The notes: generated by a model not told the origin, from the letters alone. A DNA stretch of 64,000 bases from a virus (IMGVR_UViG_3300038424_000251:301300-365299); one strand, 5' to 3'; shown: positions 38,308 through 58,327, counted from the first letter of the stretch. A program made the numbers and translations.

Positions 38308-40359
38308 GTGAAAAAATCTCAATTCCAATCATTGATTAAAAATGTGGTTGAAGAACAATTAGGACGATGGGTTTCTCCTAGTGAGTTAAATAAACAAACA
38401 CCACAACAGAAGGGAGTTGTGCAATATTTGGAAAAACTTAATTATCGTGTTACATCCACAATGCCTGCAGATACAACAGGTAAAACTGTAATAGTTATTA
38501 TGGATAAATCGGGTGGAAAATATGGCCATGAAGAAGCATTAGTAAATCCTAATGGTTCTGTGACTGGAAAGGCTGCATCTGATATTCCTATGAGCCTTAC
38601 GGGTGGAGGTTTAGATTTTTCTATTGTTGAAAAAAAATTACATCTTAAATTTCGGATTAAAAATATGGTAGAAAAAGCTATATTGAATGAGATACTTGGT
38701 GTTGGTCCAGATATTCATCAAGCTACAATAACTCAGAAACGAGCTATTAACACATTGAAAAAAATAGGATTTATTCTTAGAAATACTTATCCAACATCAG
38801 ATGGCGTAGGTATAATTCTCATAAGACATAAAGGGAAGCTTGGTAGTCCAGTAACAAGAGTTGCAAATATAAAACCAGATGGAAGTATTAATGAGCCACA
38901 TATAAATCTTAGTAAATATCTTAGTTTTGTTGGTGGTGGCGCTGGAGGTTCTGAACGTGGAGTTTCTTTACATGAATTGAGTAAACAAACATCATCACAA
39001 ACAAGAGCAGTTAATCATTTTGAAAGGAGAGGGTATCATATAAAATCTACGTCGCCTATAAGTGACAGAACTATAAATGTTATTATGACTAAATCGGGTG
39101 GTAGATTTGCCAGTGATGAAGTAATAATTGGACCAGATGGTTCTGTAAATGGAAAAGTATCTGCTACTCCTATTATTCATGAAAAAATGACTACGAGAGC
39201 CGACTTAGCAGCTGATGTGGGTCTTGGTGGCACAATGAAAGCTGTGAACGTTGCAGAAGAAAATGAGGAAAGAACATGCGACTGTGGTAGTGGATTACCT
39301 AGTAAATGGGAACGTGATGGTCAGGGTATTCCTTTGGTAAGAGCGTGTGATAAATGTAGAAAGCAGAAACTATCAAAATATCGTCCAGAAATTCTTAGAC
39401 CATATACTCAAGCAGATGTGGATGAACCGATTGAACCAGAAGATTATGAGGAACAAATGGGTGCAGTTGGTGGATATGCTACTCCATATGTGTTTAAAAA
39501 GAAAATAAGAGAAAAAATCGGTCCTGATGGAAAGTATCAAGATGATATGGAAAGTGGTGTTAGGTCAAAAAGAATTTCTGGTCTTTCTGAAATTGGTGTA
39601 GGTTTGACTACGGCTGCCGCAGTAGGGGGTATTGCTTTTATTTATATGTTATTAAACCGTATAATTAACCGTGGTTCTAACATTTACGCTGGTGGTGGTG
39701 AGTGGGAGAAAATAGAGATAACACAAGATAACATAAATATGATGCTTGATTTGATAAAAGCACATAATCCAAGACTAAAAGATGCAGATATTGAATTTGT
39801 TAAAAATCAAATTATGAATGAAATAAAGGGTGGTACAGTAAAAACCGTGGGAGATTTAAAAAAATATTTAAAAGCAAGAGAATTGGAATCGAGAAAAAAA
39901 TTAGAAGAAATACATAGGTCAGGACTCCATAGGTTAGGAATGGATTATTCTATAATTAAAAAAGTAAGAAATGCAGCTTCTAGATTTTTTAAGGTCCCTG
40001 TAGGAAATATTGAAAATATTAAAGTATTATATAAAATTACTCCTACTGATATTGTGTTTGAAATTATTTTGGGGCCACCAAGATGGGAAAGAAAATTTAT
40101 AAGATTTCATGGTATAAATAATCCTTTTGAAGTATGGGATGAAGAGCAAGAGAAATTTGTACCAACTCTTAAAACAGTTAGAAATTTTCCTCCAGAGGAA
40201 GAAGAAAATATTCAGGAAATGACAGCAACGGGTGCTATAGCTGGATATGCTACACCATTTGCATTTTCTAAAAAGAAAAGTGGTAGTCAAAGAGCATTAG
40301 ATGTAACTAAAAAGTTAGGATTTAAAGTAGTAGAAAGTATTTTAGAGAAGGTGAAGTAA
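38308..40359 (+). CDS. Modular head-internal candidate with tandem repeat domains
   Basis: A 683-residue protein beginning with GTG; the start is supported by the match of MKKSQFQSLIKNVVEEQL to MKKSQLKLIISEI in the gene at 42424. A related motif recurs at 102-120 (HLKFRIKNMVEKAILNEI, with an L-N-E site). A domain of about 65 residues is present three times (about 22-88, 139-199, 220-284; compare YLEKLNYRVTS, TLKKIGFILRN, HFERRGYHIKS) with a stub at 667-683. A four-Cys ribbon (C324, C326, C347, C350), two GYATP motifs (389, 646) and a hydrophobic segment (about 438-452) complete it. The function is unknown. Confidence 0.55.
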   Translation: MKKSQFQSLIKNVVEEQLGRWVSPSELNKQTPQQKGVVQYLEKLNYRVTSTMPADTTGKTVIVIMDKSGGKYGHEEALVNPNGSVTGKAASDIPMSLTGGGLDFSIVEKKLHLKFRIKNMVEKAILNEILGVGPDIHQATITQKRAINTLKKIGFILRNTYPTSDGVGIILIRHKGKLGSPVTRVANIKPDGSINEPHINLSKYLSFVGGGAGGSERGVSLHELSKQTSSQTRAVNHFERRGYHIKSTSPISDRTINVIMTKSGGRFASDEVIIGPDGSVNGKVSATPIIHEKMTTRADLAADVGLGGTMKAVNVAEENEERTCDCGSGLPSKWERDGQGIPLVRACDKCRKQKLSKYRPEILRPYTQADVDEPIEPEDYEEQMGAVGGYATPYVFKKKIREKIGPDGKYQDDMESGVRSKRISGLSEIGVGLTTAAAVGGIAFIYMLLNRIINRGSNIYAGGGEWEKIEITQDNINMMLDLIKAHNPRLKDADIEFVKNQIMNEIKGGTVKTVGDLKKYLKARELESRKKLEEIHRSGLHRLGMDYSIIKKVRNAASRFFKVPVGNIENIKVLYKITPTDIVFEIILGPPRWERKFIRFHGINNPFEVWDEEQEKFVPTLKTVRNFPPEEEENIQEMTATGAIAGYATPFAFSKKKSGSQRALDVTKKLGFKVVESILEKVK

Positions 40360-40360
40360 T

Positions 40361-41491
40361 ATGAGTAAGAAAATTAAATTAAGAAATTTGTTGAATTTAA
40401 CTGAACAGGCTCCACAGCCACCAATGGCAAGCCCGGCTACTCCTGTGCCTGCTCCTGTTCTTCCCGCAGGTATGAGCGCAGGCGGTGCTGCGGCAGAAGA
40501 GGTACCACCAACCCCTCCACCTGCAGAAACATCACCTGAACCGGAAGACCCATCGGAATATGATTTCACTCGTGATTTTAGGGCATTTGAGGATAAAAAG
40601 AACAAGGCTGAATCTGATGCTAAGAAGGTTCTTTTGGATAAAATGAACAAAAGACTTTTGAACAAAACTGTTGTTGCTAATGCTTCACGCGGTTATGGAC
40701 AACCAAAAACCGATTACACTATAGAAAATATTAAGAAAATTAGTGTAGAATTTTGGTATAAGGATTATGTGGTGATAGCAACCGACCAAAATGATAAGAA
40801 ATACTTTTTAACTCCGGGTATAAATATTAAAATTGAAAGTGAAGGTTCTCAACCTGCTCCGGGTGCAGAAGAAAAACCAATAGCAGGTCCAGAAGTTCCA
40901 CCACAAGAACAACCAGCGGAACAACCACCAAAAGCTGGTGATGAAGAAGAACCAAATGTAGCATCTCCATCAGCACCCTCACCAGAAGAACAACCACCAC
41001 AGGCTGTTCCAATGGTTCCTACTCAAGAGCCAGCACCAATGGCTCCACAACAAACGGTGCCAAAACAAGCACCAGCTCCAGCAGAGCCATCGCTGGCAGA
41101 ACCAGAACCGGAGATTCCACATCGTAAAAAGAAAAAGAAACTTCCACCTGTAGCTGAATGGATTCAAAAAGATTTAAATATATTTCTTGTAGAATTTATG
41201 TCTGATAGTATAAAAGATGAAAATGGAAAAGTTAATTTTCTTCCTTATATAAAGAAAACATCAAAAATATTAGCTGAAAATGTAAATACTACCAAAATCA
41301 AGTACCAGTTATTGATTCCTGAAAATCATATGATAAATAATATAGATAACAGAGATATAAAATTGGCTGCAATTGATGCTATGAGACGACAAACGTATTA
41401 TGGCCAATATTCGAAAGGTTCGGTTGATATAGTTAAAAATGGTAGATATTATCTCTTGGAATATGTTAAAGAGATAGGATGGAACGTTTAA
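40361..41491 (+). CDS. Pro/Ala-rich protein, head-internal candidate
   Basis: A 376-residue protein. The N-terminus KKIKLRNLLNLTEQ resembles a capsid-targeting peptide with an L-T-E cleavage site. Residues 18-70 and 165-245 are Pro/Ala/Glu/Gln-rich linkers. Two folded parts remain: about 70-160 (with FWYKDYVVIATDQNDKKYFL) and the C-terminal 110 residues (VAEWIQKDLNIFLVEFMSDS, ending LLEYVKEIGWNV). It lies 1 nt upstream of the prohead protease gene. No family is recognised. Confidence 0.5.
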   Translation: MSKKIKLRNLLNLTEQAPQPPMASPATPVPAPVLPAGMSAGGAAAEEVPPTPPPAETSPEPEDPSEYDFTRDFRAFEDKKNKAESDAKKVLLDKMNKRLLNKTVVANASRGYGQPKTDYTIENIKKISVEFWYKDYVVIATDQNDKKYFLTPGINIKIESEGSQPAPGAEEKPIAGPEVPPQEQPAEQPPKAGDEEEPNVASPSAPSPEEQPPQAVPMVPTQEPAPMAPQQTVPKQAPAPAEPSLAEPEPEIPHRKKKKKLPPVAEWIQKDLNIFLVEFMSDSIKDENGKVNFLPYIKKTSKILAENVNTTKIKYQLLIPENHMINNIDNRDIKLAAIDAMRRQTYYGQYSKGSVDIVKNGRYYLLEYVKEIGWNV

Positions 41492-41492
41492 T

Positions 41493-42122
41493 ATGAATAC
41501 TAAACAATTATTAGTTGATTGTATAACCTTTGAATTTATCAAAGATAATCTCTTTGAAGAAGCTATTCGTACTGATGGAAGACGATTGGTTGTCAAGGGT
41601 ATTTTACAACGAGCAAATATAAAAAATCAAAACGGTAGGCTATATAAGAAAGATGTACTTTTTCGTGAATCAAAAAAATATGAGGAAAACTTTGTAAAAG
41701 AAAGAAGAGCATTGGGAGAACTTGACCATCCAGAAAGCTCAGTTGTAAACTTACAAAATGTGTCTCATAATGTTGTAGAATTACATTGGGAAGGTGATGA
41801 CCTTATGGGAACTGTTGAAGTTTTACCTACTCCAAATGGAAATATTTTAAAGGAATTATTTAAAGCCAATATTCGACTTGGAATTTCCAGTCGTGGATTG
41901 GGAACAGTCAATAAAAGTATAAATGAAGATGCAGATGTGGTTCAAGATGATTTTGAACTTATAGCGTTTGATTTTGTATCAAATCCTAGTACAAGGGGCG
42001 CCTTCATGTTTCCATCGGGTACTCTTCAGGAAGGTGTTAAAACCACTATTCAAAATCCAATTACCCAAAAATGGGAAAGGGTTGAGAATATTGTAAGAGA
42101 TATTTTAACTGAAATTGAATAA
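41493..42122 (+). CDS. 21: Prohead core protease gp21
   Basis: A 209-residue serine protease matching T4 gp21 (212 aa). The catalytic His is H79 in LGELDHPESS and the nucleophile is within GISSRG (S132/S133). The downstream segment FELIAFDFVSNPSTRGAFM is also conserved. gp21 cuts scaffold, capsid and internal proteins after Glu in L/I-x-E sites during head maturation. Neighbouring products carry such sites near their N-termini. The portal, protease, scaffold, capsid order of T4 is kept, but with about 9 kb inserted between protease and scaffold. Confidence 0.88.
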   Translation: MNTKQLLVDCITFEFIKDNLFEEAIRTDGRRLVVKGILQRANIKNQNGRLYKKDVLFRESKKYEENFVKERRALGELDHPESSVVNLQNVSHNVVELHWEGDDLMGTVEVLPTPNGNILKELFKANIRLGISSRGLGTVNKSINEDADVVQDDFELIAFDFVSNPSTRGAFMFPSGTLQEGVKTTIQNPITQKWERVENIVRDILTEIE

Positions 42123-42126
42123 TTAT

Positions 42127-42423: not shown

Positions 42424-43689
42424 ATGAAGAAATCACAATTAAAATTGATAATTTCAGAAATTATAAAGCAGGCAAAATTACTTGAAAATGGGTTATCTCG
42501 TAATTGTACTGCTAATGATATTACATGGAAAGGAAAAAAAGGATATCAATGTTTAAATTGTGGTGCATGGGCTGAACATTCTTGGGATATTAAACATAAA
42601 AAACAAAATCCATTAGAAAAACCAAAATTTTTTGAAAATGATTTGAATGAAGCAATATCTCCAAAAAGTGTTGCTACAATTGAAAAATGGCGAAAAGAAG
42701 TCGGAGATAGACAAACTGGTGTAAAATTAATAGATACCGTTTTAGAAAGAAGACTTGGATTATTATCAGCAGATTTAGCTGATACTGCTATATTTGCAAA
42801 TGGATTGGATGCAATAGAAGAAGTGTTAAAGGAGAATAATTATGAAGCTGCTATTCGTCAAGCTATAGAAACTGCTAGGGAAATGATAGAGGATGAAGGT
42901 GGGGCAGGAATATGGGAAGAATACAGAAAATTACAAGAAGCTCAAGGATGGGCAGGTGCAGATGATAGATGGATTTCACACCCTATAACAAAAAAGGAAC
43001 CAAAATATTATAAAGAATATGGTGTAACATATTGTCATATTGACCTAAAAAAAGAAAAGTGTCCTCCGGGTATGAAAATTTTCCCCTACACAGAAGAACA
43101 TGTTCCTACAAAGAAAAAATTTCCAAGACAAATATGTTGTTATAATGAAAATGATTTTCGCAAATTATTAGGGCATTGGAATACAGCAGTGTGGAAATAC
43201 GAACCAACTAGTTCAATGTTACAAGAGAAAGTAAATAGGTCAGAATTAAAATTTATTATTAAAGAAATTGTCAGAGAAATTTATTCTGAACAATTTCGAC
43301 AAGATGAAATTAGTAATAAATGGAAAGCATTAGCAAGCGCCGCTTTGGTTGGATATGCTGGATTGCATACTCCTTTTGGAACAAAAACCGCTCAACATTG
43401 GAGTCAAACACCTGCTGGACAACAAATTGTAATGACGGCTAGACAAATGTGGAATCAAGTACCACCAGCTCAACGAACAGCAGAAAAGGCTAAACAAATA
43501 TGGGGTCAAATAATAAAACCGGGTCATATTGATATGCCCAATCCAAACGAACCATTACCATCAGAAAAAGGTATGAGTCCTTGGGATTTAGCTGGTAAAT
43601 ATACTGCAAGAAATGTGGACCTTACTCAAAAATTACAACCGTTTGTTAAACGTTATCTACCTCCTGTTAGTTCAAAGAATCCTTCTTAA
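42424..43689 (+). CDS. Modular head-internal candidate with two targeting-like motifs
   Basis: A 421-residue protein. The N-terminal motif MKKSQLKLIISEIIKQAKLL is followed by E21, and a second copy lies at 272-290 (NRSELKFIIKEIVREIYSE). Between them are a zinc-ribbon-like segment (C43-x-x-C46 with H52 and H58), a helical domain and a Cys-containing domain (YCHIDLKKEKC, QICCYNEND). After the second motif comes AALVGYAGLHTPFG, reminiscent of the GYATP motif of the protein at 38308. If the prohead protease cuts after the motifs, it would release two separate domains. No enzymatic function is evident. Confidence 0.5.
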   Translation: MKKSQLKLIISEIIKQAKLLENGLSRNCTANDITWKGKKGYQCLNCGAWAEHSWDIKHKKQNPLEKPKFFENDLNEAISPKSVATIEKWRKEVGDRQTGVKLIDTVLERRLGLLSADLADTAIFANGLDAIEEVLKENNYEAAIRQAIETAREMIEDEGGAGIWEEYRKLQEAQGWAGADDRWISHPITKKEPKYYKEYGVTYCHIDLKKEKCPPGMKIFPYTEEHVPTKKKFPRQICCYNENDFRKLLGHWNTAVWKYEPTSSMLQEKVNRSELKFIIKEIVREIYSEQFRQDEISNKWKALASAALVGYAGLHTPFGTKTAQHWSQTPAGQQIVMTARQMWNQVPPAQRTAEKAKQIWGQIIKPGHIDMPNPNEPLPSEKGMSPWDLAGKYTARNVDLTQKLQPFVKRYLPPVSSKNPS

Positions 43690-43750
43690 TATATTCAAAA
43701 TATTCAGTTTAACATTAATTGCCGTTAAATGGATAAGATTTATCTTTTCA

Positions 43751-43779
43751 TTGACAATCCGCGAATTTTGTGGTATTAT
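43751..43779 (+). promoter_or_regulatory. Strong sigma70-like promoter for NADAR gene
   Basis: TTGACA (43751-43756), a 17-nt spacer and TATTAT (43774-43779): a consensus -35 and a near-consensus -10. The ATG follows 9 nt later, so the transcript should begin about 2-3 nt before it. Confidence 0.75.
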
Positions 43780-43788
43780 ATTTTTATT

Positions 43789-44253
43789 ATGAAAATTGAA
43801 TTCTATAGAATAGCAGAACCTTATGGAGATTTTTCCAATTTTTCAAGACATCCAATTGTTTTGAAAGGTAAAGTGTGGCCTACTACAGAGCATTATTTCC
43901 AATCACAGAAATTCGCTGGAACTGAACACGAAGAAGATGTAAGGCTTGCCAAAGGCCCGCGAGCGGCTGCTGAAATAGGACGTGACAGGAATCGTCCTTT
44001 AAGAGTTGATTGGGAACAAGTCAAAGAAAGCATTATGAAAGATGCTTTATTAGCTAAAATTGCACAATATCCTAAAATTAAGGAGCTTTTACTTTCTACT
44101 GGAGATGCAGAAATTGTTGAACATAGTTTCAAGGATAGATATTGGGCTGATGGTGGTGATGGTTCTGGAAAAAACAGATTGGGTATTCTTTGGATGGAAA
44201 TAAGAAAAGAGTTACAAGATGAAAAGAACCGAACGGCTCCGCAAGGAAGCTGA
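43789..44253 (+). CDS. NADAR-domain (YbiA-like) glycosidase
   Basis: The ATG at 43789 is chosen because an in-frame ATG at 43729 lies upstream of the promoter. The 154-residue protein shows the NADAR signatures FSNFSRHPIVLKGKVWPTTE with HYFQSQKF, then the C-terminal YWADGGDGSGKNRLGILWME. Members are N-glycosidases, some acting on riboflavin intermediates (YbiA) and some removing ADP-ribose from guanine in DNA as partners of DarT-like toxins. In a phage, reversal of host DNA ADP-ribosylation is an attractive role, but substrate choice cannot be read from sequence. Confidence 0.85.
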   Translation: MKIEFYRIAEPYGDFSNFSRHPIVLKGKVWPTTEHYFQSQKFAGTEHEEDVRLAKGPRAAAEIGRDRNRPLRVDWEQVKESIMKDALLAKIAQYPKIKELLLSTGDAEIVEHSFKDRYWADGGDGSGKNRLGILWMEIRKELQDEKNRTAPQGS

Positions 44254-44740
44254 AAAAACGATGGAAAAAATTCGCCTAATTGCGAGACATATTCGCAATG
44301 TGGAAGATAATTGCGTAATATTAGCAGAAAAATTATTGGCTTTGGGTGAAGTGGAATTAGCTAGAAATTTGGTTGCTAATGGAATGGTACACGATGCATC
44401 TAAATTTTTTGGTATAGAGTGGGAATATCTTTCTCTTGGAAATCCTGTAGAAGATGTTGCTAAATTGAAAATGAAATTGGCAATTCATCATCATAATTCT
44501 ACAAATAAACATCACCCCGAAGCTTGGCCGGGTGGCATTAAAGAAATGCCTGATGTATATTTGGCAGAATTTTGCTGTGATATTAAAGCAAGAAGTGAGG
44601 AATTTGGAACCGACTTACGAAATTGGATTGATGAAGTTGCAACCAAAAAATATTGCTTTACTAAAGAGGATGAAGTTTATAAAAAGGTAATGAAATTTGT
44701 TGATATGTTGTGTCCGCCGCCGTTTAAAGAAATTAAATAA
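44219..44740 (+). CDS. DUF5662-like protein with conserved His clusters
   Basis: A 173-residue protein with MVHDASKFFGIEWEYLS, LAIHHHNSTNKHHPEAW, GGIKEMPDVYLAEFCCDIKA and RSEEFGTDLRNWI, the pattern of DUF5662 proteins found in phages and bacteria. The spaced His and Asp residues recall HD-type metal phosphohydrolases, but no activity is known to me. The start shown overlaps the NADAR gene by 35 nt; an alternative ATG at 44261 would avoid this. It belongs to the NADAR transcription unit. Confidence 0.6.
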   Translation: MKRTERLRKEAEKTMEKIRLIARHIRNVEDNCVILAEKLLALGEVELARNLVANGMVHDASKFFGIEWEYLSLGNPVEDVAKLKMKLAIHHHNSTNKHHPEAWPGGIKEMPDVYLAEFCCDIKARSEEFGTDLRNWIDEVATKKYCFTKEDEVYKKVMKFVDMLCPPPFKEIK

Positions 44741-44769
44741 TTGACTTTTGTAATAAAGTGTGATATTTT
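44741..44769 (+). promoter_or_regulatory. Sigma70-like promoter, start codon 10 nt downstream
   Basis: TTGACT (44741-44746), a 17-nt spacer and TATTTT (44764-44769), then 10 nt to the ATG at 44780. The -35 begins immediately after the stop of the previous gene. Confidence 0.5.
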
Positions 44770-44779
44770 CTTTATAATT

Positions 44780-45184
44780 ATGACACCAAAATCAATAAAC
44801 ATAGCAGTGGCAGAACAAATTGAAAAATTCGGTTCTGATAAAGTAGTTAATACAGTTGTGGAGAAATTAGTTAATGCTGAAGTAATTAAACGAGCTGATG
44901 CTCTTGCTGCAGCCATTAAGTTATCGGAAGAAACTCTCCGTGAAGCTCGCAAGGCTTCTAAACCAGACCAAGTAGCTATAAACGCTGATGGTAGTAGAAA
45001 TGAAACATTTTCTCCAAAAGCATTTGAAGCCAAGAAGAAATTGGATGAAAAACTAACCAAGATTGAAAACACAGTAGTAAATGCTACTGAAAAAGGTGAA
45101 TGGGGTAAATTGTATGAATTGGTAAAGGGCGGCGCTCAGCCAACAGCAGAAACCAAACCTGATGACGCCTCAACAAATAATTAA
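44780..45184 (+). CDS. Helical hypothetical protein (134 aa)
   Basis: The ATG at 44780 (MTPKSINIAVAEQIEKFGSD) is chosen over an in-frame TTG at 44741, which lies within the -35 element. The protein is helical, with KVVNTVVEKLVNAEVIKRAD and a charged middle, and ends in a disordered Thr/Asp/Asn tail. It overlaps the next gene by 23 nt. No family is recognised. Its promoter suggests early expression. Confidence 0.5.
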   Translation: MTPKSINIAVAEQIEKFGSDKVVNTVVEKLVNAEVIKRADALAAAIKLSEETLREARKASKPDQVAINADGSRNETFSPKAFEAKKKLDEKLTKIENTVVNATEKGEWGKLYELVKGGAQPTAETKPDDASTNN

Positions 45185-45506
45185 TAGAATTCAAAAAGAA
45201 GCAGACGCTCGATTGGGTGATACCATCGAGCGTTTGTTTTTAATTTTACGAAATCGCCATACACACCAATGCTGGCGGAAGGAATGTGATTGTGAATATT
45301 GTCGGTTTATCAATGGTAAATATGTTCATGAAAAACTTGTATTACATGCATTGAAAAGACGAATTAGAGAACTTGATGATTATTGGAATGCATCTGATTA
45401 TGAATTACAGTTATTATGGCAATTACAAGCAGACCAATGGAAACAGAAAGCGAAAATTCGTTTATTGAAAAATCATAAAAAGGAATTACACGAAAATATT
45501 GTCTAA
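45162..45506 (+). CDS. Cys-cluster hypothetical protein (114 aa)
   Basis: A basic, mostly helical protein with a Cys cluster (CWRKECDCEYC, residues about 38-48) that could bind zinc. Long helices follow (EKLVLHALKRRIRELDDYWN). It overlaps its neighbours by 23 nt upstream and 1 nt downstream (TAATG), so translation is coupled. It could be a small DNA- or RNA-binding protein; this is a guess from charge and Cys content. Confidence 0.5.
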   Translation: MTPQQIINRIQKEADARLGDTIERLFLILRNRHTHQCWRKECDCEYCRFINGKYVHEKLVLHALKRRIRELDDYWNASDYELQLLWQLQADQWKQKAKIRLLKNHKKELHENIV

Positions 45507-45676
45507 TGGAAAAATATAATAAAATTTTTAAGAGAATGTTAAAATATCATTTTCATAGAGGATTGTGTTATCCATTGGATATAAACTGGTATGGAAATGA
45601 TGGTCATTATTTAAAAATAATTTTTTACATAGAACTCTTGGACAATCTTAGGGAAGTGATTCTTAAGAACGCTTGA
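45506..45676 (+). CDS. Small hypothetical protein (56 aa)
   Basis: The ATG overlaps the previous stop codon (TAATG). The 56-residue product begins MEKYNKIFKRMLKYHFHRGL and ends ELLDNLREVILKNA, a plausible small alpha/beta protein. Its last codons overlap the -35 element of the next promoter. No family is recognised. Confidence 0.5.
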   Translation: MEKYNKIFKRMLKYHFHRGLCYPLDINWYGNDGHYLKIIFYIELLDNLREVILKNA

Positions 45677-45700
45677 CATTTATGCTTTCTCTGATAAACT
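45673..45700 (+). promoter_or_regulatory. Sigma70-like promoter for RlaP-like gene
   Basis: TTGACA (45673-45678), a 16-nt spacer and TAAACT (45695-45700), then 6 nt to the ATG at 45707. The -35 is consensus and the -10 is weak. Confidence 0.5.
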
Positions 45701-45706
45701 ATCTAT

Positions 45707-46933
45707 ATGAATTTGAATTGGCTTGTTCCAAATACTATTTACATAACTCTCCACGGTTCACAGGCTTATGGCTTGAATAATGAATTGTCCGATGTTGATG
45801 TAAAAGGTATTGTAATTCCGCCTAAAGAAATAGAAAATAATCTATTTCATCGCTTTGAGCAGGCAGAAAATGATAAATCTATTGAATCATTTTTGGAGCA
45901 TTTGAAAAATCCAAAAAATCCAAAATTTGAGTCCACTCTTTACTCTTTGAAAAAGTTCATGATTTTGGCTGCTAATGTAAATCCCAATATTATTGAACTA
46001 TTGTGGACCGACCCCAGTAACCATTTTGTTTTTAAATCACCAATGGATGAATTGATGGATAGTAGAGATTTATTCTTGTCATCCAAAGCTAAATTTACAT
46101 TTTCGGGATATGCATATAGTCAATTAGCGAAAATTGAACGACACCGCAAATGGATTGTTCGTGGTGAATTGACAGAACCAAAAAGAAAAGATTTTGGTTT
46201 GCCCGAAGAACGCCCAAGACAAATGAGTGAAATCTTTGGTTTAATCAAATCCGAAGTTGAACGATGGAATCTATCACAGTTTCCATTAAGTGAAATGGAA
46301 CGCGACGAATTAAAGTCAACCATTTGGGAATTAATTCTTAATGTTTCAGAAGTGGACGTTAATGAAGGTAATTGGCCTCAAATGTATGAGGCTGGTGTCA
46401 TTGAACGTTTGTCCAAGGAATACAACTTGAAGGAAGAAGTAATTGATATTTTACAGAGAGAACGACTTTACAAAAAGGAAATAGAAGCCTACAATTCTTG
46501 GCTTAATTGGAGAAAGAATCGTAATCCAGCAAGACATGAACTTGAAGTTAAATCGGGTTACGATACCAAACATGCTTCACATCTTGTTAGGTTAATGCGA
46601 ATGGGTTTGGAAATCTTGAATGACCGCAAGGTTATTGTCAAACGTCCTGACCGTGAGGAAATCTTAGCTATTAAAAATGGTTCATGGTCTTATGAACAGG
46701 TTATTGAATTTGCAAATTCCATGCAAGTAAAATTAGATGAAGCTTATAAAACTACAACTCTTCCAAAGACTGTGAATTATGAAAAGATTAATGAACTTTA
46801 TCATAAATTGTATGAGGGGTATCATAATAAAAATTCAAATGTTATTTTTGTTCAACCTTCCTGTAATCCTGAACCTATCGGTGTAGGCAGGATATCAGAT
46901 GGACAACCTCTTGAAAATAAATTTTACATGTGA
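45707..46933 (+). CDS. RlaP-like nucleotidyltransferase
   Basis: A 408-residue protein with the DNA polymerase beta superfamily motif HGSQAYGLNNELSDVDVKGI (residues about 16-35). It contains the G-S and D-x-D elements that bind nucleotide and metal. The following GIVIPPKEIENNLFHRF fits the PF10127 (RlaP) family, named for association with RNA ligase operons in RNA repair. Later segments (ARHELEVKSGYDTKHASHLV, RLMRMGLEIL) are also family-typical. No RNA ligase lies in this window. T4 repairs tRNA cut by host nucleases, so an anti-defence RNA repair role is possible but unproven. Confidence 0.75.
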   Translation: MNLNWLVPNTIYITLHGSQAYGLNNELSDVDVKGIVIPPKEIENNLFHRFEQAENDKSIESFLEHLKNPKNPKFESTLYSLKKFMILAANVNPNIIELLWTDPSNHFVFKSPMDELMDSRDLFLSSKAKFTFSGYAYSQLAKIERHRKWIVRGELTEPKRKDFGLPEERPRQMSEIFGLIKSEVERWNLSQFPLSEMERDELKSTIWELILNVSEVDVNEGNWPQMYEAGVIERLSKEYNLKEEVIDILQRERLYKKEIEAYNSWLNWRKNRNPARHELEVKSGYDTKHASHLVRLMRMGLEILNDRKVIVKRPDREEILAIKNGSWSYEQVIEFANSMQVKLDEAYKTTTLPKTVNYEKINELYHKLYEGYHNKNSNVIFVQPSCNPEPIGVGRISDGQPLENKFYM

Positions 46934-49820: not shown

Positions 49821-50123
49821 TTATAAATAGGGCCGGTTTTCCCATTTTTGCTTATAATTAGCAAAATATTCTTCAAGGTCTTTAAATTTTAGGAATGTTC
49901 GTTTTTCTTTTTTTGTTCTATCTTCAATAATAAAACCTGTGCCTTTTTTATGGCTTAATCTCATTTCTGGTCTTTTAAGAGCATAATAAAACATACCATC
50001 ATTTTTAAAACCCATATCTTCAAGATACATAGCATCGGTTGCTTTCCAATTATCAACCGGAGTTAATCCTTTATCACGTTCGTCGCTAACAATATGTTTT
50101 AATAATTCTGTAAGTTTAATCAT
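49821..50123 (-). CDS. Small head-internal candidate (100 aa)
   Basis: A 100-residue protein that begins MIKLTELLKHIVSDERDKGL, close to the targeting-like motif of the genes at 58046 and 56314. The rest is a basic alpha/beta domain (MYLEDMGFKNDGMFYYALKR, FIIEDRTKKEKRTFLKF). It lies 1 nt downstream of the 259-aa gene, so it is co-translated with it. No family is recognised. Confidence 0.5.
   Translation of the reverse strand: MIKLTELLKHIVSDERDKGLTPVDNWKATDAMYLEDMGFKNDGMFYYALKRPEMRLSHKKGTGFIIEDRTKKEKRTFLKFKDLEEYFANYKQKWENRPYL
49822..49829 (-). promoter_or_regulatory. Late promoter TATTTATA on minus strand
   Basis: The minus strand reads TATTTATA, AGACAT, then the ATG at 49815: a 6-nt gap and no Shine-Dalgarno, like several plus-strand copies. 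Confidence 0.6.
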
Positions 50124-51131: not shown

Positions 51132-52724
51132 ATGATTAATAGTGAACTATTGAAAGAAGCGATTGCTGATGCTAAGGCAGTAAGAGCCACTGCTCTCGCC
51201 AATGCTAAAGCCGCTCTTGAAGAAGCCTTCGCTCCCCGTTTTGAGGCAATGTTTGCCGACAAATTAAAAGAGGAATCCGAAGAAGAAGAAGACCAAGAAG
51301 AGGGACTACAGGAAGTAGAAGCTCCAAATCAGGTTCATGGAAGTGGTGGAGAAGCTAAGGGACCAGCAACCAAAGCCGTTTCTAAAGGTAATCCCAAAAC
51401 ACCAAAAGGTGGCGCCGGTGATGTGGATTTTAAAGCCGTTCAAGCTGGATTAGGCCCAACAGGCGTTCCTAAACTCGGTAAGAAAGTTAATGAAACTGCC
51501 GAAGAAGAAGAAGAGGAAGATGAAGGTAGGAAGAAAATGGATGAAACTGCCGAAGAGGAAGATGAAGGTAGAAGGGAAGAAGAGGGCGAGGAGGAAGATG
51601 AGGGTAGGGTTGAAGAAGCTGGTCTAACTTCGGAAGATTTAGATGAAATTATTGCAGAGTTGGAAAATGAAGTAGCAGAGGAAGAAGAAGGTAGAACGGA
51701 AGAAGAACCTGCTGCTCCAGAACTAACACCAGCACCAGAAGATAGTGGTGGAGTGTCATCGCCTGTTACTGGTGATGAAAGAGAACCCGTTACTGGTGAC
51801 GAAGAACCTGCTGCCAATATTGAAGCAGAACCGGGTAGTGAAGTTGATATTAATCTTGAACCGGAACCAGAAGCTGAACCGGGAGCTGATACAGTCCCCC
51901 CAACAGCTATGGATGCTGGTGGAGCAAGTAGGCGACCAGTTAGAGAACCTGCTGAAGAACCGGTTGAAGAACCTGTTGGAGCTGCAGAAGATGAAGAAAA
52001 TATCAATCTAGATGAATTACTCGCCGCTCTTAATGAAGAAGGCGAAGAAGAAGAGGAAGAAGAAGGGTATGAAGAAATGGATGAAGCCTTACAAAATCAA
52101 GGTCTTCCAACCAAAGAACTTGCTGGTCAGGACAAAACCGGTGGTGTAAAGGGTTATCCACCCGGTCCAGATGCTAGTAAGAGACAGCTACCGGGTAAAA
52201 ATCATAATATTCAAGGTAAAGGCAACATTGGTAGTGGGTCTGAAACAGGTAAACCAATGGCAGAAGCATCTCAATACAGGGTTGCTTTGAAAGAAGCCTA
52301 TAAAACCATTGAATTCCTCCGTGGACAAATTAATGAGGTCAATCTGTTGAATGCTAAACTACTTTACACGAACAAGTTGTTTAAAGAATTCGCAGGTGTT
52401 TTGGACGATTCATATCGTATGAAAATCGTTGAATCATTTGACCTAACAAAAAGTGTTCGTGAAGTCAAGCTGGCCTACGCCCTATTGGCGGAGTCCTTGA
52501 ATTTCGGTACGCAAATGACAAAAACCCACTCTGTAAAATCGGTTGTAAAACCGGTTTCGCAAAAGGGACAAGTTAAGCAAATTACCGAAGGATTCGCATC
52601 AAAGCCGGTGTCATCAACAAAACCTTCCAAGTTAATTACTGAAGGTAATGAGATGGCTCTTAGATTCAAGAAGCTCGCTGGAATCAAAGATACACCGAAG
52701 ACTACTACTCCTGAAAAGAAGTAA
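51132..52724 (+). CDS. 22: Prohead core scaffold protein, gp22-like
   Basis: A 530-residue protein. Residues 1-35 are an Ala/Lys helix (AIADAKAVRATALANAKAAL). Residues about 45-320 are very acidic with repeated ETAEEE, EPVTGDE and EPE units. The C-terminal part (YRVALKEAYKTIEFLRGQIN, LLNAKLLYTNKLFKEF, VREVKLAYALLAESL) is the helical scaffold region seen in T4-like marine phages. Sites such as QITEG and LITEG near the end fit cleavage by gp21. It directly precedes the major capsid gene, as gp22 does in T4, but is almost twice as long as T4 gp22 (269 aa). Confidence 0.8.
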   Translation: MINSELLKEAIADAKAVRATALANAKAALEEAFAPRFEAMFADKLKEESEEEEDQEEGLQEVEAPNQVHGSGGEAKGPATKAVSKGNPKTPKGGAGDVDFKAVQAGLGPTGVPKLGKKVNETAEEEEEEDEGRKKMDETAEEEDEGRREEEGEEEDEGRVEEAGLTSEDLDEIIAELENEVAEEEEGRTEEEPAAPELTPAPEDSGGVSSPVTGDEREPVTGDEEPAANIEAEPGSEVDINLEPEPEAEPGADTVPPTAMDAGGASRRPVREPAEEPVEEPVGAAEDEENINLDELLAALNEEGEEEEEEEGYEEMDEALQNQGLPTKELAGQDKTGGVKGYPPGPDASKRQLPGKNHNIQGKGNIGSGSETGKPMAEASQYRVALKEAYKTIEFLRGQINEVNLLNAKLLYTNKLFKEFAGVLDDSYRMKIVESFDLTKSVREVKLAYALLAESLNFGTQMTKTHSVKSVVKPVSQKGQVKQITEGFASKPVSSTKPSKLITEGNEMALRFKKLAGIKDTPKTTTPEKK

Positions 52725-52766: not shown

Positions 52767-54614
52767 ATGGAAAATATTAAATCATTGTTAACAAACACTC
52801 TCAATCCTCAAGCTCGTTTGATGCAGGAAACCCGTGGTCTTGTGACCAAGTGGGATAAAACCGGTCTTCTTGATGGTATTAAGAGTGATATTGAGAAGTC
52901 CAATATGTCGGTCTTGCTCGAAAATCAGGCTAAACAACTGATTGAAGAAGCAACTGCTACTGGTACTTCCGCAAACTCTGAACAGTGGGCTGGCGTAGCT
53001 CTCCCGTTGGTCAGACGTGTATTTGCTGAATTTGCTGCGAAGGAATTCGTATCCGTTCAGCCTATGAACCTCCCATCTGGTCTTGTGTTCTACTTGGATT
53101 TCAAGTATGGCTCACCTCACGGTGGTAATCCTGCCGATACATCAGGTTCATATTATCAATCATTGTTCGGTGGTACTGGTGCTAAACTAGGTTCTACTGA
53201 TACATTCGGCGGTGGTCTATACGGCGCAGGCCGATATGGTTACACCATTAATCAAAAAGCTGCAACTGCAGTAACATTTAGTGCAGCTACATCAACATTG
53301 GAAGATATTGACTGGTTGGCTAATTATTATACTCAATATGCCTCATCTGGTTCAGTACAAGGAATTTTGAATAGTATTTCAGCATCGTTTAATAACAATC
53401 AGCTTATTACTTTTAAAACTTCAAATTTTTATAGTACTACGACTAGTCAAGGTAATCCGTTTGACCCATTAGCTGTTCGTTCATTCATGCCATATAGCAT
53501 TGTTACTGGATCTACAGCAGGGCTAACTGCTTCATTTCAATCAGGTAGTGCTGCCGGCTCCGGTCCTATGTATTTCCCACCATTTACAAAATTTGTAGTG
53601 GGTACTGGTATCGATGCTGGTGGTGCTCAGGTTGGTGAAATCCAGTTTGTCTTATCAGCTTCGGCTGGTGCTACTGGTTCCTTCACTGGTAATATTTATT
53701 ACACAGTTCAACCAAGCCCACAAGACCGTGGTGACTTCGAAGATAATCCAAACAATGCTAATGCTACTGGTACTGATACGGGATTTGTTTATGGAACAGG
53801 TAAGTCAACTACTGATACTGGTCTTAACAAGGATATCGGTATTCCAGAAGTAAACTTGCAACTTAACTCCGAACCAATCGTAGCTAAGACACGTAAGTTG
53901 AAAGCTGTCTGGACTCCTGAACTTGCTCAAGACTTGAATGCTTATCATAGCATTGACGCAGAAGCAGAATTGACTGCTCTGTTGTCTGAATATGTTTCAA
54001 TGGAAATTGACCTTGAAATTCTTGATATGTTGATTAACGCAGTATTACCTATCAATATTGAACGTTGGAGTGCAAGGCTTAATACGGAAATAGTTCCTAC
54101 TGGAACTGGTACTTACCAATTCGTTCAAACAACAACGGCAGGTACTGGTGGTTACTACACCAAGGCAACATGGTACCAAACTCTTGGTAACAAGATTCAA
54201 AAGGTATCCAACAGGATTCACCAATTGACGCTTCGTGGTGGTGCTAACTTCATGGTTATCTCCCCAACAGTGGCAACTGTTCTTGAATCTATTCCGGGAT
54301 TCGTAGTGAATACCGATGGCGACCAAGCAAAGTTTGCTATGGGCGTTTCAAGGGTTGGTTCATTTGCTTCAAGGTTCCAAGTTTACAAGAACCCATATAT
54401 GACTGATAATATCATTCTAATGGGCTTCCGTGGTAATAACTTCTTGGAAACTGGTGCAGTATATGCTCCATACATTCCATTGGTTCAGACACCGTTAGTG
54501 TATGACCCTGTGAACTTCACGCCAAGACGTGGTGTAATGACCCGTTACGCGAAGAAGATTGTTCGTCCTGAATTCTATGGCAAGATTTACATTGCCGATT
54601 TGGACACGGTATAA
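52767..54614 (+). CDS. 23: Major capsid protein gp23
   Basis: A 615-residue protein, compared with 521 in T4. The N-terminal 61 residues look like the T4 propeptide and end LLENQAKQLIEE before ATATG, so gp21 probably cuts after E61 (E65 in T4). Conserved parts include LPLVRRVFAEFAAKEFVSVQ, LKAVWTPELAQDLNAYHSID, NFMVISPTVATVLESIPGF and FYGKIYIADLD. The region at about 100-340 is a long Gly/Ser/Thr-rich insertion domain. The codons are noticeably richer in C and G than those of neighbours, as expected of a highly expressed gene. A strong terminator follows. Confidence 0.92.
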   Translation: MENIKSLLTNTLNPQARLMQETRGLVTKWDKTGLLDGIKSDIEKSNMSVLLENQAKQLIEEATATGTSANSEQWAGVALPLVRRVFAEFAAKEFVSVQPMNLPSGLVFYLDFKYGSPHGGNPADTSGSYYQSLFGGTGAKLGSTDTFGGGLYGAGRYGYTINQKAATAVTFSAATSTLEDIDWLANYYTQYASSGSVQGILNSISASFNNNQLITFKTSNFYSTTTSQGNPFDPLAVRSFMPYSIVTGSTAGLTASFQSGSAAGSGPMYFPPFTKFVVGTGIDAGGAQVGEIQFVLSASAGATGSFTGNIYYTVQPSPQDRGDFEDNPNNANATGTDTGFVYGTGKSTTDTGLNKDIGIPEVNLQLNSEPIVAKTRKLKAVWTPELAQDLNAYHSIDAEAELTALLSEYVSMEIDLEILDMLINAVLPINIERWSARLNTEIVPTGTGTYQFVQTTTAGTGGYYTKATWYQTLGNKIQKVSNRIHQLTLRGGANFMVISPTVATVLESIPGFVVNTDGDQAKFAMGVSRVGSFASRFQVYKNPYMTDNIILMGFRGNNFLETGAVYAPYIPLVQTPLVYDPVNFTPRRGVMTRYAKKIVRPEFYGKIYIADLDTV

Positions 54615-54640: not shown

Positions 54641-54672
54641 AAAGGAGCCGTAGAAATACGGCTCTTTTCTTT
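54641..54672 (+). terminator. Rho-independent terminator after major capsid gene
   Basis: Stem GAGCCGT (54645-54651) and ACGGCTC (54658-54664), 6-nt loop AGAAAT, A-run before and TTTTCTTTT after. It ends the scaffold-capsid operon. Confidence 0.85.
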
Positions 54673-54686
54673 TGCATTTATTTAAT
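54641..54686 (+). repeat. Direct repeat copy 1 flanking FkbM-fibre cassette
   Basis: This 46-bp segment matches 56243-56288 at 39 positions. All but one of the differences fall in the hairpin centre. The two copies bracket the two genes between them. Confidence 0.8.
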
Positions 54687-54731
54687 TTTATTTCATTCTT
54701 GTTTAGATTTTATTGTAGAATTTTGATATCT

Positions 54732-55589
54732 ATGGAATATAAATCAAAAATTATGAAAATAGCGAATGTACATGGTGTAGAATGGAAAATGGACGATAAT
54801 ATTTATGAATGGCATAGACGGTATAAGTGTATTGAAGTGGGACCAGAATCTATCTGGAATTCAAACCCAGAAATAGTTTCTGAAATGACAGCTTTTAAAT
54901 TATATTGTATAGAAAATTCTCCGAGTGTTTTTATTGATATTGGAACATATTGTGGAATAGTTTCTTCGGTATATTGTTCTTTAGTAAAAGACCATCGATG
55001 TTATTCAATAGAACCTATTCGTTCTCATTGTGAGAGATTACAAAATACTGCTAAATTAAATAATTGGAATTTAAGTACACATCCAATTGGGTTAAATAAT
55101 TATGTTGGAAAATGTTATTATCACAATACTAATATGGCACGATTTACAAACGACCCAAACTTTAAAGTGTCTGATGCTGAGATTAATAGTAATCCTGAAA
55201 ATGCTAAAATACATGAAGTTAATATTGATACCTTAGATAATTTTGTTAAATCAAATAATATAAAACCAAATTTAATAAAAATAGATGTAGAGGGATACGA
55301 AGTACCAATACTTGAAAAAGCTCAAGAAACATTATCAAACGATGCTGTAGATTTATTTATTGAAACACATAGAAATGAATGTATAGAACTTGGTTGGAAT
55401 ATAGAAAAATTATGTGATTATATACCTCAAAAGGATTATATTTTTTATACTACAGGTCTTTTGTATGACCAAAATTCTCTTCCAAGTTATATTTTTAGGC
55501 AAAGAATTTTTACTGATTTAAAAGATTATATACTTAATCATAAAAGTACTATGAGATTTGTGGCTATAAATAAAAAAAATTTAGGTTAA
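54732..55589 (+). CDS. FkbM-family SAM-dependent methyltransferase
   Basis: The ATG at 54732 (MEYKSKIMKIANVHGVEWKM) is chosen because an upstream in-frame ATG at 54672 lies in the terminator tail. The 285-residue protein has SAM motif I VFIDIGTYCGIVS, an acidic strand end RCYSIEPIRSHCERL, and the FkbM signature LIKIDVEGYEVPILEKA. Members methylate hydroxyl groups on sugars or small molecules. Within a cassette shared with a fibre gene, modification of glycans on the virion or host surface is a reasonable guess. It has no clear promoter; the terminator upstream isolates it from the capsid operon. Confidence 0.85.
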   Translation: MEYKSKIMKIANVHGVEWKMDDNIYEWHRRYKCIEVGPESIWNSNPEIVSEMTAFKLYCIENSPSVFIDIGTYCGIVSSVYCSLVKDHRCYSIEPIRSHCERLQNTAKLNNWNLSTHPIGLNNYVGKCYYHNTNMARFTNDPNFKVSDAEINSNPENAKIHEVNIDTLDNFVKSNNIKPNLIKIDVEGYEVPILEKAQETLSNDAVDLFIETHRNECIELGWNIEKLCDYIPQKDYIFYTTGLLYDQNSLPSYIFRQRIFTDLKDYILNHKSTMRFVAINKKNLG

Positions 55590-55628
55590 AATAAAGAAAG
55601 AAATTTGAAATAATATTTTATTTTTAGA

Positions 55629-55636
55629 TATTTATA
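55629..55636 (+). promoter_or_regulatory. Late promoter TATTTATA before cassette fibre gene
   Basis: The octamer lies 34 nt before the ATG at 55671, in the 81-nt gap after the methyltransferase gene. Confidence 0.55.
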
Positions 55637-55670
55637 GTGCAATAAAGTTATATTTAACAGTTAAAATATT

Positions 55671-56225
55671 ATGACAAATCTATCTATCCATTTATGTGAT
55701 ACTTCAGCATCTTTAGTTTTAACATCTGCTTCATTTGCAGATCAATCAATTAGTTCAAGCTATGCTATAAGCTCATCTTGGACGTTATTAACACAACAAC
55801 AGATTTCATGTTCTTGGGCAAGTTCATCTATGTCATCATCTTGGGCACCACCAACCTCTGTTTTGAGATATACAACTACTGCGTCATTTGCAAGTGGACC
55901 ATATATGTACAATATTTCGTTACCGTTTATTCCTTTTAGAACAGGAGTAGGAATCTTGTGTATTAATAATGATGGGACTAGTGGTTATCAATCAGGGTCA
56001 TTGTTAGATATTAGCACTATTAATGGCGCAGCAACCGTGGGTGGTGCCAGTACTGGTCAAATCTTTTGGAATATTAATGAAAATATTGTTACTGTTAGGA
56101 CTACTAATCGTACTGTTGGTTATGAAGCTAGTTGGGCACTTTGGAAAGCTACTACTTATGGTGATAATCCTATAGGTGGGTTATCATCATGGAATAATTT
56201 TGTAATTCAAGTGAATGCAGAATAA
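55671..56225 (+). CDS. Small fibre/tip protein with SASYA repeats
   Basis: A 184-residue protein. Residues 1-65 carry LTSASFADQSISSSYAISSS and SWASSSMSSSWAPP units, the window's common shaft repeat. Residues 70-184 form a compact C-terminal domain (YNISLPFIPFRTGVGILCIN, GYEASWALWKATTYG) likely to be the receptor-facing tip. It has its own promoter and terminator. Its small size compared with the fibre at 59335 suggests an exchangeable tip or a decoration protein. Confidence 0.6.
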   Translation: MTNLSIHLCDTSASLVLTSASFADQSISSSYAISSSWTLLTQQQISCSWASSSMSSSWAPPTSVLRYTTTASFASGPYMYNISLPFIPFRTGVGILCINNDGTSGYQSGSLLDISTINGAATVGGASTGQIFWNINENIVTVRTTNRTVGYEASWALWKATTYGDNPIGGLSSWNNFVIQVNAE

Positions 56226-56242
56226 TTTTAATATTTGAATAC

Positions 56243-56276
56243 AAAGGAGCCGAATTTCTTCGGCTCTTTTCTTTTG
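56243..56276 (+). terminator. Rho-independent terminator after cassette fibre gene
   Basis: Stem GAGCCGAA (56247-56254) and TTCGGCTC (56259-56266), loop TTTC, followed by TTTTCTTTT. The hairpin is the reverse complement of the one at 54645-54664 apart from one swapped base pair. Confidence 0.85.
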
Positions 56277-56288
56277 CATTTATTCAAT
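56243..56288 (+). repeat. Direct repeat copy 2 flanking FkbM-fibre cassette
   Basis: This is the partner of 54641-54686. Ten bases before the loop and 26 of the 27 bases from the second CGGCTC onward are the same, including TTTTCTTTTGCATTTATT. Confidence 0.8.
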
Positions 56289-56298
56289 AAAAATTGAA

Positions 56299-56306
56299 TA
56301 TTTATA
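56299..56306 (+). promoter_or_regulatory. Late promoter TATTTATA, 7 nt before start codon
   Basis: The octamer is followed by TTAGAAT and the ATG at 56314. No Shine-Dalgarno is present. Confidence 0.6.
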
Positions 56307-56313
56307 TTAGAAT

Positions 56314-56703
56314 ATGAAGCAAAGTCAACTTAAACAACTTATTAAAGAGATTGTATATTGTATTTTTAAAGAACAGTTTGGTGAACCAACTCCACAAAAG
56401 TTAATACCTGATGATGAAGAAGAACTATGGAAAATAGTACAGAGTTTACCTATTGATTATTCAATTCAATTTTCAATTTTTCATCCAATATCAAAAGGGT
56501 TGTTGATTATACTTCATAGTAGTAAGGGAAATGTATTTGCAGCTACCAGTCTTGGTGGGTTAAAACATGCTGGTCCACCTGATGGAAAATGGCATGTACC
56601 GGGTGAGAAAATTTTAAGAATTTTAGTAAAGGATGTATATGATTATGGTGAAAATAATGATGTATATTATTCCATAGTTAAAACTACTCCAACTAACCTT
56701 TAA
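56314..56703 (+). CDS. Small head-internal candidate (129 aa)
   Basis: The N-terminus MKQSQLKQLIKEIVYCIFKE is the clearest copy of the targeting-like motif. After a short linker comes a domain of about 95 residues (EEELWKIVQSLPIDYSIQFS, GLLIILHSSKGNVFAATSLG, DGKWHVPGEKILRILVKDVY) with no known relatives. Its own late promoter suggests it is made with the virion proteins. If cleaved after the motif, the C-terminal domain would be a free protein inside the head. Confidence 0.5.
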   Translation: MKQSQLKQLIKEIVYCIFKEQFGEPTPQKLIPDDEEELWKIVQSLPIDYSIQFSIFHPISKGLLIILHSSKGNVFAATSLGGLKHAGPPDGKWHVPGEKILRILVKDVYDYGENNDVYYSIVKTTPTNL

Positions 56704-56711
56704 AATTTTTA

Positions 56712-56719
56712 TATTTATA
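56712..56719 (+). promoter_or_regulatory. Late promoter TATTTATA, 5 nt before start codon
   Basis: The octamer is followed by TCAAT and the ATG at 56725. It begins 9 nt after the previous stop codon. Confidence 0.65.
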
Positions 56720-56724
56720 TCAAT

Positions 56725-58053
56725 ATGACCGATTTTATTTTTAAGGAATCATATCATGATAATATGTCAGATGCTGAAAAAGAAGCATTGGCTCTCTCTT
56801 ATTGGTCAATAGGACAGTCAGATGAAGATGGTGAAGATATTTCGTGGAAAAATTGGTGTTGGATTTATAAAAATGACATATTGCGCTACAAAAAAGGACA
56901 AACGCATGGTATCAACTTTGGTATTGATAGAGAAAATTATTTTAGAGGTTGGTATGATGCTAAAAAGAATACAATATCTGTGGTTTTTCCTGCACATGAA
57001 CTTAGAAAATTTGGTAATAGAAGGCCATCAGAAGATGACATACCACAATTACTTTATCAAAAACTAATTAATACATTTGGCGCTGGGCGTCCAAAATTCA
57101 TTGTATTTGAGAATGCTACACTGATAAAAAGAAGTGAATTAAAATTGCTTCTAAAAGAAATTGTTCAACAAATTCTTCTAAACGAAAGAGAAGAGAATGA
57201 ATATTATTGGTTAGAACCAAATTTACAGTTTCAAAGAGTTCCGTGGGAAGGACATGCAAATTGGGCAAGAAATTATTTAGAGAATATGGGAAAAAAATTA
57301 TCTTATGGTGATTATGATGATGTGGGTGTTTATAATAGAATGTATGAATTGGGATTTGTTAGAGTTGTCAAAGTTGGTTATTTTGATGGTGATATTCTGA
57401 CATATAATTATAAAAAAGGATTTCCGCCTTCTCCACAAAAAATAAAAGCAATGAAGAATTTTGCAATAGAAAAGAATTGTGACACAATTAGAGATGATAC
57501 GAGTGGAAGAATTGAAAATTTGTTACAGGAAGGAATATTTCTTAAAGAAACAATGACTTATAAAGAACTTTTAGCTTTAACAACTCCTGAAAGAAAAGAA
57601 CGTGCAGCAAATGTAAGAGTTCGCTCTATTCCTGTTAGTATTGAAGAGGGATTAGAACAATGGAATTTCAGATATAAATCCAGTCCACAAACCACTGTAA
57701 CTGATGAACCATTTGAAGGTCATATTACATTCTTAAAAGGTAGAGTAGAACGAAGTGATGATGCTATGAATTTAGAGTGTAAAGTTGATTGTAGTTGTCC
57801 TGATTTCATGTATAGATTTGCTTATAATGATACTCAAAAAGGTGCAAGTGATATTGGACCTGACAGTTTAAGCGGTTGTATTAATAGAAAACCAAAACCA
57901 GCTTATGATTATGGTGAAGGCTTATGTAAACACTTGGCAGCATTGCGTAGATATTTACAAACAAAAATATTAGCGACTAGAAGAAGTAATTTATTTGAAG
58001 CAATCGGTGATGTGGCAAAACAAGGACCATTTAATATAACCTATTATGATTAA
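56725..58053 (+). CDS. SWIM zinc-finger protein with internal targeting-like motif
   Basis: A 442-residue protein. Residues 1-130 are an alpha/beta domain (ISWKNWCWIYKNDILRYKKG, HGINFGIDRENYFRGWYD). The motif IKRSELKLLLKEIVQQILLN lies at 134-153 with L-N-E following. Residues 160-280 form another domain (VPWEGHANWARNYLENMGKK). The last 130 hold a SWIM-type finger: C-x-C in KVDCSCPDFMYRF and C-x-H in GLCKHLAALRRYL. SWIM proteins of this kind are common in T4-like cyanophages. SWIM domains bind DNA or protein; the function here is unknown. It overlaps the next gene by 8 nt. Confidence 0.6.
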   Translation: MTDFIFKESYHDNMSDAEKEALALSYWSIGQSDEDGEDISWKNWCWIYKNDILRYKKGQTHGINFGIDRENYFRGWYDAKKNTISVVFPAHELRKFGNRRPSEDDIPQLLYQKLINTFGAGRPKFIVFENATLIKRSELKLLLKEIVQQILLNEREENEYYWLEPNLQFQRVPWEGHANWARNYLENMGKKLSYGDYDDVGVYNRMYELGFVRVVKVGYFDGDILTYNYKKGFPPSPQKIKAMKNFAIEKNCDTIRDDTSGRIENLLQEGIFLKETMTYKELLALTTPERKERAANVRVRSIPVSIEEGLEQWNFRYKSSPQTTVTDEPFEGHITFLKGRVERSDDAMNLECKVDCSCPDFMYRFAYNDTQKGASDIGPDSLSGCINRKPKPAYDYGEGLCKHLAALRRYLQTKILATRRSNLFEAIGDVAKQGPFNITYYD

Positions 58054-58327
58054 ACTTAAATCATTATTAACTGAATTTCAAGGTGAAAATTTAAAAGTGG
58101 GAGATTTTGTTCTTACAACTGGGAAGGGTCCATTAACAGGACCTAATTCTCCATTGGGGTTTGATAATCTTCCAGCAATAATTGTAGGTAAACGACAAAA
58201 TAAGTATCTTATTATGTTTAGAGGGTCAATCAGTCCATTAGAAGCCACAGATGAACAAATAATAAAAGTATCAAAACCTCATAGATTTCCTCTATCACCT
58301 TGGGTCAAAAAGTATCTTGGAAAATAA
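58046..58327 (+). CDS. Small head-internal candidate (93 aa)
   Basis: The N-terminus MIKLKSLLTEFQ closely resembles T4 internal-protein leaders, which end in an I-A-E or similar site; here L-T-E falls at residues 8-10. The rest is a small beta-rich domain (KVGDFVLTTGKGPLTGPNSP, LPAIIVGKRQNKYLIMFRG) ending SPWVKKYLGK. It overlaps the SWIM gene by 8 nt. No family is recognised. Confidence 0.5.
   Translation: MIKLKSLLTEFQGENLKVGDFVLTTGKGPLTGPNSPLGFDNLPAIIVGKRQNKYLIMFRGSISPLEATDEQIIKVSKPHRFPLSPWVKKYLGK

Follow-up and report, generated by a model that had tools for sequence, protein, structure and literature searches.

Head proteases and targeting peptides in known phages

In phage T4 the prohead protease gp21 cleaves after L/I-x-E, and the CTSs are short N-terminal propeptides carried by diverse proteins; Alt is an injected ADP-ribosyltransferase, and the core proteins undergo cleavage at multiple sites (PMC9026906). 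In phiKZ and SPN3US a protease related to gp21 cleaves many inner-head proteins after x-x-E, some of them at several sites (PMC5694885, PMC10052503). Their propeptides are mostly longer than 100 residues, are shared by paralogues only and have A-x-E or S-x-E, unlike the leaders described here.

The window, meaning the whole stretch of 64,000 nucleotides that was analysed, covers positions 301300-365299 (the terminal part) of a 365,299-base IMG/VR record from a T4-like phage. Like the CTSs of IPI, IPII, IPIII and Alt, its leader is a short N-terminal segment of unrelated proteins which ends at L/I-x-E and is accompanied by a gp21-family protease. It differs in being another and longer peptide (about 20 residues, KSEL type), in having many more passengers per genome and in occurring also inside proteins and in chains with several L-x-E joints. 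The first-pass annotation had suggested that proteins are packed into the head by the same route as in T4. This is supported by the comparison: the leader is separable, ends at L/I-x-E, occurs almost only in viral contigs, and the protease is usually present when the contig is long. The reading preferred here, with a probability of about 0.83, is that the motif is a cleavable prohead-targeting leader, the counterpart of the T4 CTS, processed by gp21, partly within polyproteins; packaging and cleavage are inferred. The principle is known from T4; what appears to be undescribed is this family of leaders, the scale on which it is used and the modular precursors. A literature search on the motif strings and on CTSs in environmental phages found no description in open-licence papers, and an earlier one elsewhere is possible.

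The head gene cluster of the window

A T4-type head cluster lies wholly on the plus strand. It comprises a gp17-type terminase large subunit (33437-35050; PF03237, E 4e-16), a gp20-type portal (35287-37368; PF07230, E 2e-67), a gp21-type prohead protease (41493-42122; PF03420, E 9e-27), a gp22-like acidic scaffold candidate (51132-52724) and a gp23-type major capsid protein (52767-54614; PF07068, E 9e-72). The T4 order 17, 20, 67, 68, 21, 22, 23 is matched, with the exception of genes inserted in the window between 21 and 22 and of the T4 tail genes 18 and 19. The scaffold candidate rests on position and composition, as Pfam and PHROG searches returned no family match for it; its N-terminus, MINSELLKE, was considered as a leader and rejected, L-x-E not being kept in relatives (LLKQ, LLKD, LLKN). 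Alignment of the protease with T4 gp21 leaves His79 and Ser132/Ser133 invariant. Glu61 of gp23, in LIEE/ATATG (the slash marks the presumed cut), aligns with the known cut sites of T4 gp23 and gp24, and inspection of the portal tail revealed a possible site, LIKE/ATTTG, with its Glu at 37309-37311. The context of both resembles that of the conserved last element of the 38308-type proteins discussed below.

Among isolates, the closest proteases belong to Microcystis phage Mel-JY01 and the Flavobacterium phages immuto, and megablast of the window against isolate phages gave nothing beyond a 34-base match. A similar head region is known from a set of freshwater Bacteroidetes phages (PMC9723584); membership of the window phage in that group has not been shown. 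Between gp21 and gp22, positions 43729-46933 encode a NADAR domain protein (43729), a DUF5662 protein (44219) and an RlaP-type nucleotidyltransferase (45707), possibly with functions in nucleotide or RNA repair. Tail or fibre-like proteins with many repeats such as SSSWASSSISSSYAITASWA were seen at 807-1754, 24879-25664 and 59335-63825.

Leader copies in the window

The leader profile matched residues 1-21 and 108-128 of the protein starting at 38308, 1-21 and 270-290 of that at 42424, 1-21 of that at 56314 and 134-154 of that at 56725. All six copies named by the first-pass annotation were thus recovered, the internal copy of 38308 lying at 108-128 and not at 102-120. When a strict pattern was applied to the six frames of the window, four matches were obtained, all in frame in long ORFs, with none in 100 residue shuffles. 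Two plus-strand proteins downstream of gp23 are the leader protein at 56314-56703 (MKQSQLKQLIKEIVYCIFKEQ at 56314-56376) and the protein at 56725-58053, whose leader is internal (IKRSELKLLLKEIVQQILLNE at 57124-57186). The bodies had been described as unrelated, and this holds for the window proteins because none of them has a mutual blastp match at 1e-4. The L-x-E said to follow the leader is patchy in the window (LLE, LNE, but also FKE and YSE) and far clearer in relatives. Further copies are found elsewhere in the record, e.g. at 284162, 29730 and 30194 on the plus strand and at 88369 on the minus strand.

Three shorter relatives had also been proposed. The plus-strand proteins at 58046-58327 (MIKLKSLLTE at 58046-58075) and 40361-41491 (KLRNLLNLTE; leader MSKKIKLRNLLNLTE at 40361-40405) remain plausible, their class being enriched at N-termini, and orthologues of the latter in loci L007, L015 and L020 keep L-x-E. 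The third, at 49821 (MIKLTELLKH, minus strand), was dropped because L-x-E is missing both in it and in its L007 and L020 orthologues.

The leader family and its boundary

The loci labelled L with a number are stretches around gp21 relatives together with viral contigs that have leader matches. Leader proteins are numerous around gp21 relatives, and in L031 an array of leader genes lies between gp21 and a gp22-like gene. A virus-wide scan of viral contigs with a degenerate DNA pattern for residues 1-14 (at least 120 stretches) yielded at least 148 leader proteins in at least 134 unrelated body clusters. Among 84,980 prokaryote genomes the pattern occurred in two small contigs of one bin, and the leader is therefore essentially virus-specific; the one of these contigs that was inspected seems phage-like, judging from its ORFs. 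A tblastn search with the 21-residue leader against isolate phages gave no matches, probably since the query is short and of low complexity. By pattern search, leaders are present in the isolate Flavobacterium phage vB_FspM_immuto (NC_055915), where candidate leader proteins besides gp072 are gp076 and gp077 (leaders ending in KILKE/NS and QLLKE/GS), gp082 (MRLLELLRE/AK) and gp231 (MIKLIDLLTE/S). A third leader type, FDLKKFLxENKLTxNSKLLxE, which also ends in L/I-x-E, was observed in immuto and is common to at least three proteins (L298:18632-18931, L298:17631-18632 and L296:1803-2318).

Because the search fixed residues 1-14, evidence on the leader is independent only beyond residue 14. Among the matches listed, 117 of 134 representatives have an [LIVMF]-x-E whose Glu falls at residues 17-24, mostly at 19 or 20, against a rate of 10-16% in 10-residue windows within bodies, and strict L-x-E is found in 86 of these 134 leaders, compared with 2 to 8 in any one body window. 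Positional information stays above 2.5 bits through residue 14, falls to about 1 bit at 15-20 and is about zero from residue 22 on. It could be argued that the leader is a docking helix which binds proteins, uncut, to the scaffold core or the inner shell, L-x-E being just the end of that helix. The leader of the one modelled protein is indeed a predicted helix (residues 3-20) before a folded domain, the mean helical moment of leaders is raised (0.35 vs 0.26 for shuffled ones), and 17 of the 134 leaders among the matches listed (13%) have no [LIVMF]-x-E at their end. L-x-E stands, however, exactly at the breaks in homology and conservation, including joints between modules where no leader is present, and it matches the consensus for the class of protease which these genomes encode, so that uncut docking is regarded as improbable.

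Short leaders and leader exchange

The short class, MIKLxxLLxE, is N-terminal in 2.5-7.2% of ORFs in the phages of these loci (long leaders partly included) versus 0.27% in the interior; random viral contigs have no such enrichment (0.34% vs 0.23%). The propeptide of T4 gp24 is removed by gp21. It is MAKINELLRE/S, close to the short class in length and pattern and the sole T4 match to the short pattern in the stretches examined; gp24 is a shell protein, whereas the short leader here sits on many unrelated small proteins. For the T4 CTS MKTYQEFIAE, inspection found no clear similarity to the long leader.

Up to ten body clusters carry both leader classes (loose class patterns, among the matches listed). 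In the clearest cases, namely L153 with L071 (46% identity over 237 residues) and L049 with L118, two proteins of different leader class become homologous at the residue that follows the Glu in each of them. At L031:15316-17368, three short-leader proteins have a second motif, KYSF(E/Q)R(S/E)FGEPLPT, directly behind the site of presumed cleavage; FGEP is likewise found after the leader of the window protein at 56314.

Such exchange could be aided by DNA similarity, and it might be proposed that what these genes share is in the main a nucleic-acid element, in DNA or mRNA (a recombination site or a start-region signal), and that the peptide is incidental. Its location at gene starts and the skewed serine-4 codon (TCA in 101 of 131 leaders among the matches listed vs 32% in bodies) would agree with this. 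The fixed residues are nevertheless encoded by five Leu, three Ile and six Ser codons, internal copies are in frame, and L-x-E is kept at the peptide level; the proposal is hardly tenable, and in its purely nucleic-acid form it was rejected on codon use. As far as comparison of sequences can establish it, the leader has been demonstrated to be a separable module which ends at L-x-E and is exchanged among unrelated bodies in genomes with a gp21-family protease.

Modular proteins and internal leaders

The plus-strand protein at 38308-40359, homologous to proteins of L007, L008, L018 and other loci, lies between portal and protease. It shares its gene position with T4 gp67 and gp68 and has several L-x-E sites, which recalls the multiple cuts in the T4 core proteins (gp67, gp68 and gp22); in contrast to these it holds inserted modules and an internal leader, and no sequence similarity to them was found (no Pfam or PHROG match). 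An N-terminal leader (MKKSQFQSLIKNVVEEQLGRW, 38308-38370), an internal leader (EKKLHLKFRIKNMVEKAILNE, 38629-38691) and a conserved last element (MTATGAIAGYATPFAF, 40219-40359), the latter preceded by the possible cut site NIQE, can be distinguished. In the orthologues of L007, L008 and L018 the stretch that aligns with this internal leader is the N-terminal leader, and it follows that the window protein has gained a unit ahead of it. No orthologue with a matching N-terminal leader was found for the internal leader of 42424 or for that of 56725. In L022, L024, L028, L029, L030 and immuto the leader is joined directly to M(T/S)xTGxVxGY (in immuto gp072, MKKSQIVKAVQEVLEE and then MSTTG), while in the window's group modules are inserted between the leader and this element, which mostly stands after L/I/V-x-E. 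By eye, 38308-40359 shows three stretches that resemble one another, each about 80 residues long (around 20-100, 130-205 and 220-290); blastp self-comparison at 1e-4 was negative.

The modular precursor at 42424-43689 (plus strand) opens with an N-terminal leader (MKKSQLKLIISEIIKQAKLLE, 42424-42486) and a zinc-ribbon-like part; the LNE joint at residue 76 leads to module B, after which LQE at residue 268 precedes an internal leader (VNRSELKFIIKEIVREIYSE, 43231-43293) and module C. Proteins of this type downstream of gp21 are mosaics: module B starts after DLNE, SLNE, KLNE, RVNE or NLNE with unrelated sequence upstream, and later modules begin after LKE or LRE. In the 42424 and 38308 types, 18 of 30 well-supported interior starts of homology fall on [LIV]-x-E against 5.5 expected; the p-value of this test is optimistic because the proteins are related to one another. 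One chain of L043 joins a short leader and three modules, with LQE and LKE between them, and two of these modules are found elsewhere as separate leader proteins. A single ORF of L101 joins two leader genes which are separate in L111, by which an internal leader is created; assembly error is not excluded.

What would be expected of polyproteins, namely independent modules that are joined at protease-consensus sites and exist elsewhere as separate proteins, is met here. The earlier proposal of polyproteins with internal leaders is accordingly upheld at the level of predicted proteins, in the form of putative modular chains with joints at L-x-E and, in 38308, an internal leader which corresponds to the N-terminal leaders of relatives.

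Passengers

The protein at 284162 of the record joins the leader to a complete YdeN/RBBP9-type hydrolase from residue 25. Tpt1/KptA and DarT are members of the ADP-ribosyltransferase superfamily. They were the closest structures to a model (mean pLDDT 74) of the L049/L118/L144-type passenger, whose family carries both leader classes (L049, L288, L118, L144, L123, L061) and has invariant YHxT, SxT and ExE; there was also a PF15633 match below the cut-off. As the best E is about 2e-3 and TM about 0.4, the predicted ADP-ribosyltransferase-like nature of this family, which would recall T4 Alt, is to be taken as a pointer that falls short of proof. When 116 passengers were scanned against Pfam, NCBIfam and PHROG, few could be named with confidence; most of the others have no assignable function.

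Association with the prohead protease

With leader contigs taken from the matches listed and control contigs drawn with a random 15-mer, PF03420 turned up in 14 of the 19 leader contigs that measure 60 kb or more, versus none of seven controls (Fisher p 0.001), and in 19 of 50 versus 2 of 36 at 19 kb or more (p 0.0007). For leader contigs of at least 100 kb the count was 10 of 13. It had been predicted that a profile search over related phages would place the motif next to the protease. The strand of gp21 is shared, by 64 of 65 leader copies in 13 records (the strand bias of all genes was not part of the comparison); the expected proximity was often absent, many leader genes lying tens of kb away. 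In the leader-bearing loci L087 (record G017) and L142 (record G049) the gp21 match (PF03420) contains 2 and 3 in-frame TGA codons respectively, which suggests, from sequence, that these phages may read TGA as an amino acid.

The scatter of leader genes across the genome would also suit a leader that has no relation to head maturation and sends proteins to some other place in the infected cell or to a different part of the virion (tail, membrane or replication site), as would three large leader contigs in which neither PF03420 nor Gp23 was found and which are possibly fragments without the head region. This is very improbable: in most relatives, as in immuto, the protein that occupies the gp67/gp68 position between portal and gp21 bears the leader, there is the association with PF03420, and the leader end is identical with the gp21 consensus.

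Proposed mechanism and significance

Against head targeting with cleavage it has to be said that there is no proteomics, that some leaders are without L-x-E and that leader genes are often far from gp21. Under that reading, leader-bearing proteins would be made late, together with the head proteins, and the leader helix of about 20 residues would bind the prohead core and bring its protein into the head as this grows. The gp21-family protease that the phage itself encodes would then cut after L/I-x-E at the leader end, and further cuts at L-x-E between modules would make some chains precursors of several small proteins. The freed domains would remain with the DNA and many of them might be injected; virion presence and injection, as the preceding steps, are inferred. 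Since a cultured leader-bearing phage exists (Flavobacterium phage immuto), the question is directly testable.

A wider proposal, judged probable with considerable reserve, is that a large unrecognised class of head cargo exists in environmental T4-like phages, made up of shuffled small proteins and true polyproteins with N-terminal and internal leaders, which are cut in the head before injection, most passengers being unknown host-takeover or counter-defence proteins. If the leader has the proposed role, a tag readable from sequence would tell which hypothetical proteins of uncultured phages ride in the head. Proteins that are probably injected could then be catalogued, the tag could serve generally to load cargo into phage heads, and the modular precursors would extend the role of the head protease from leader removal to the release of several proteins per chain.
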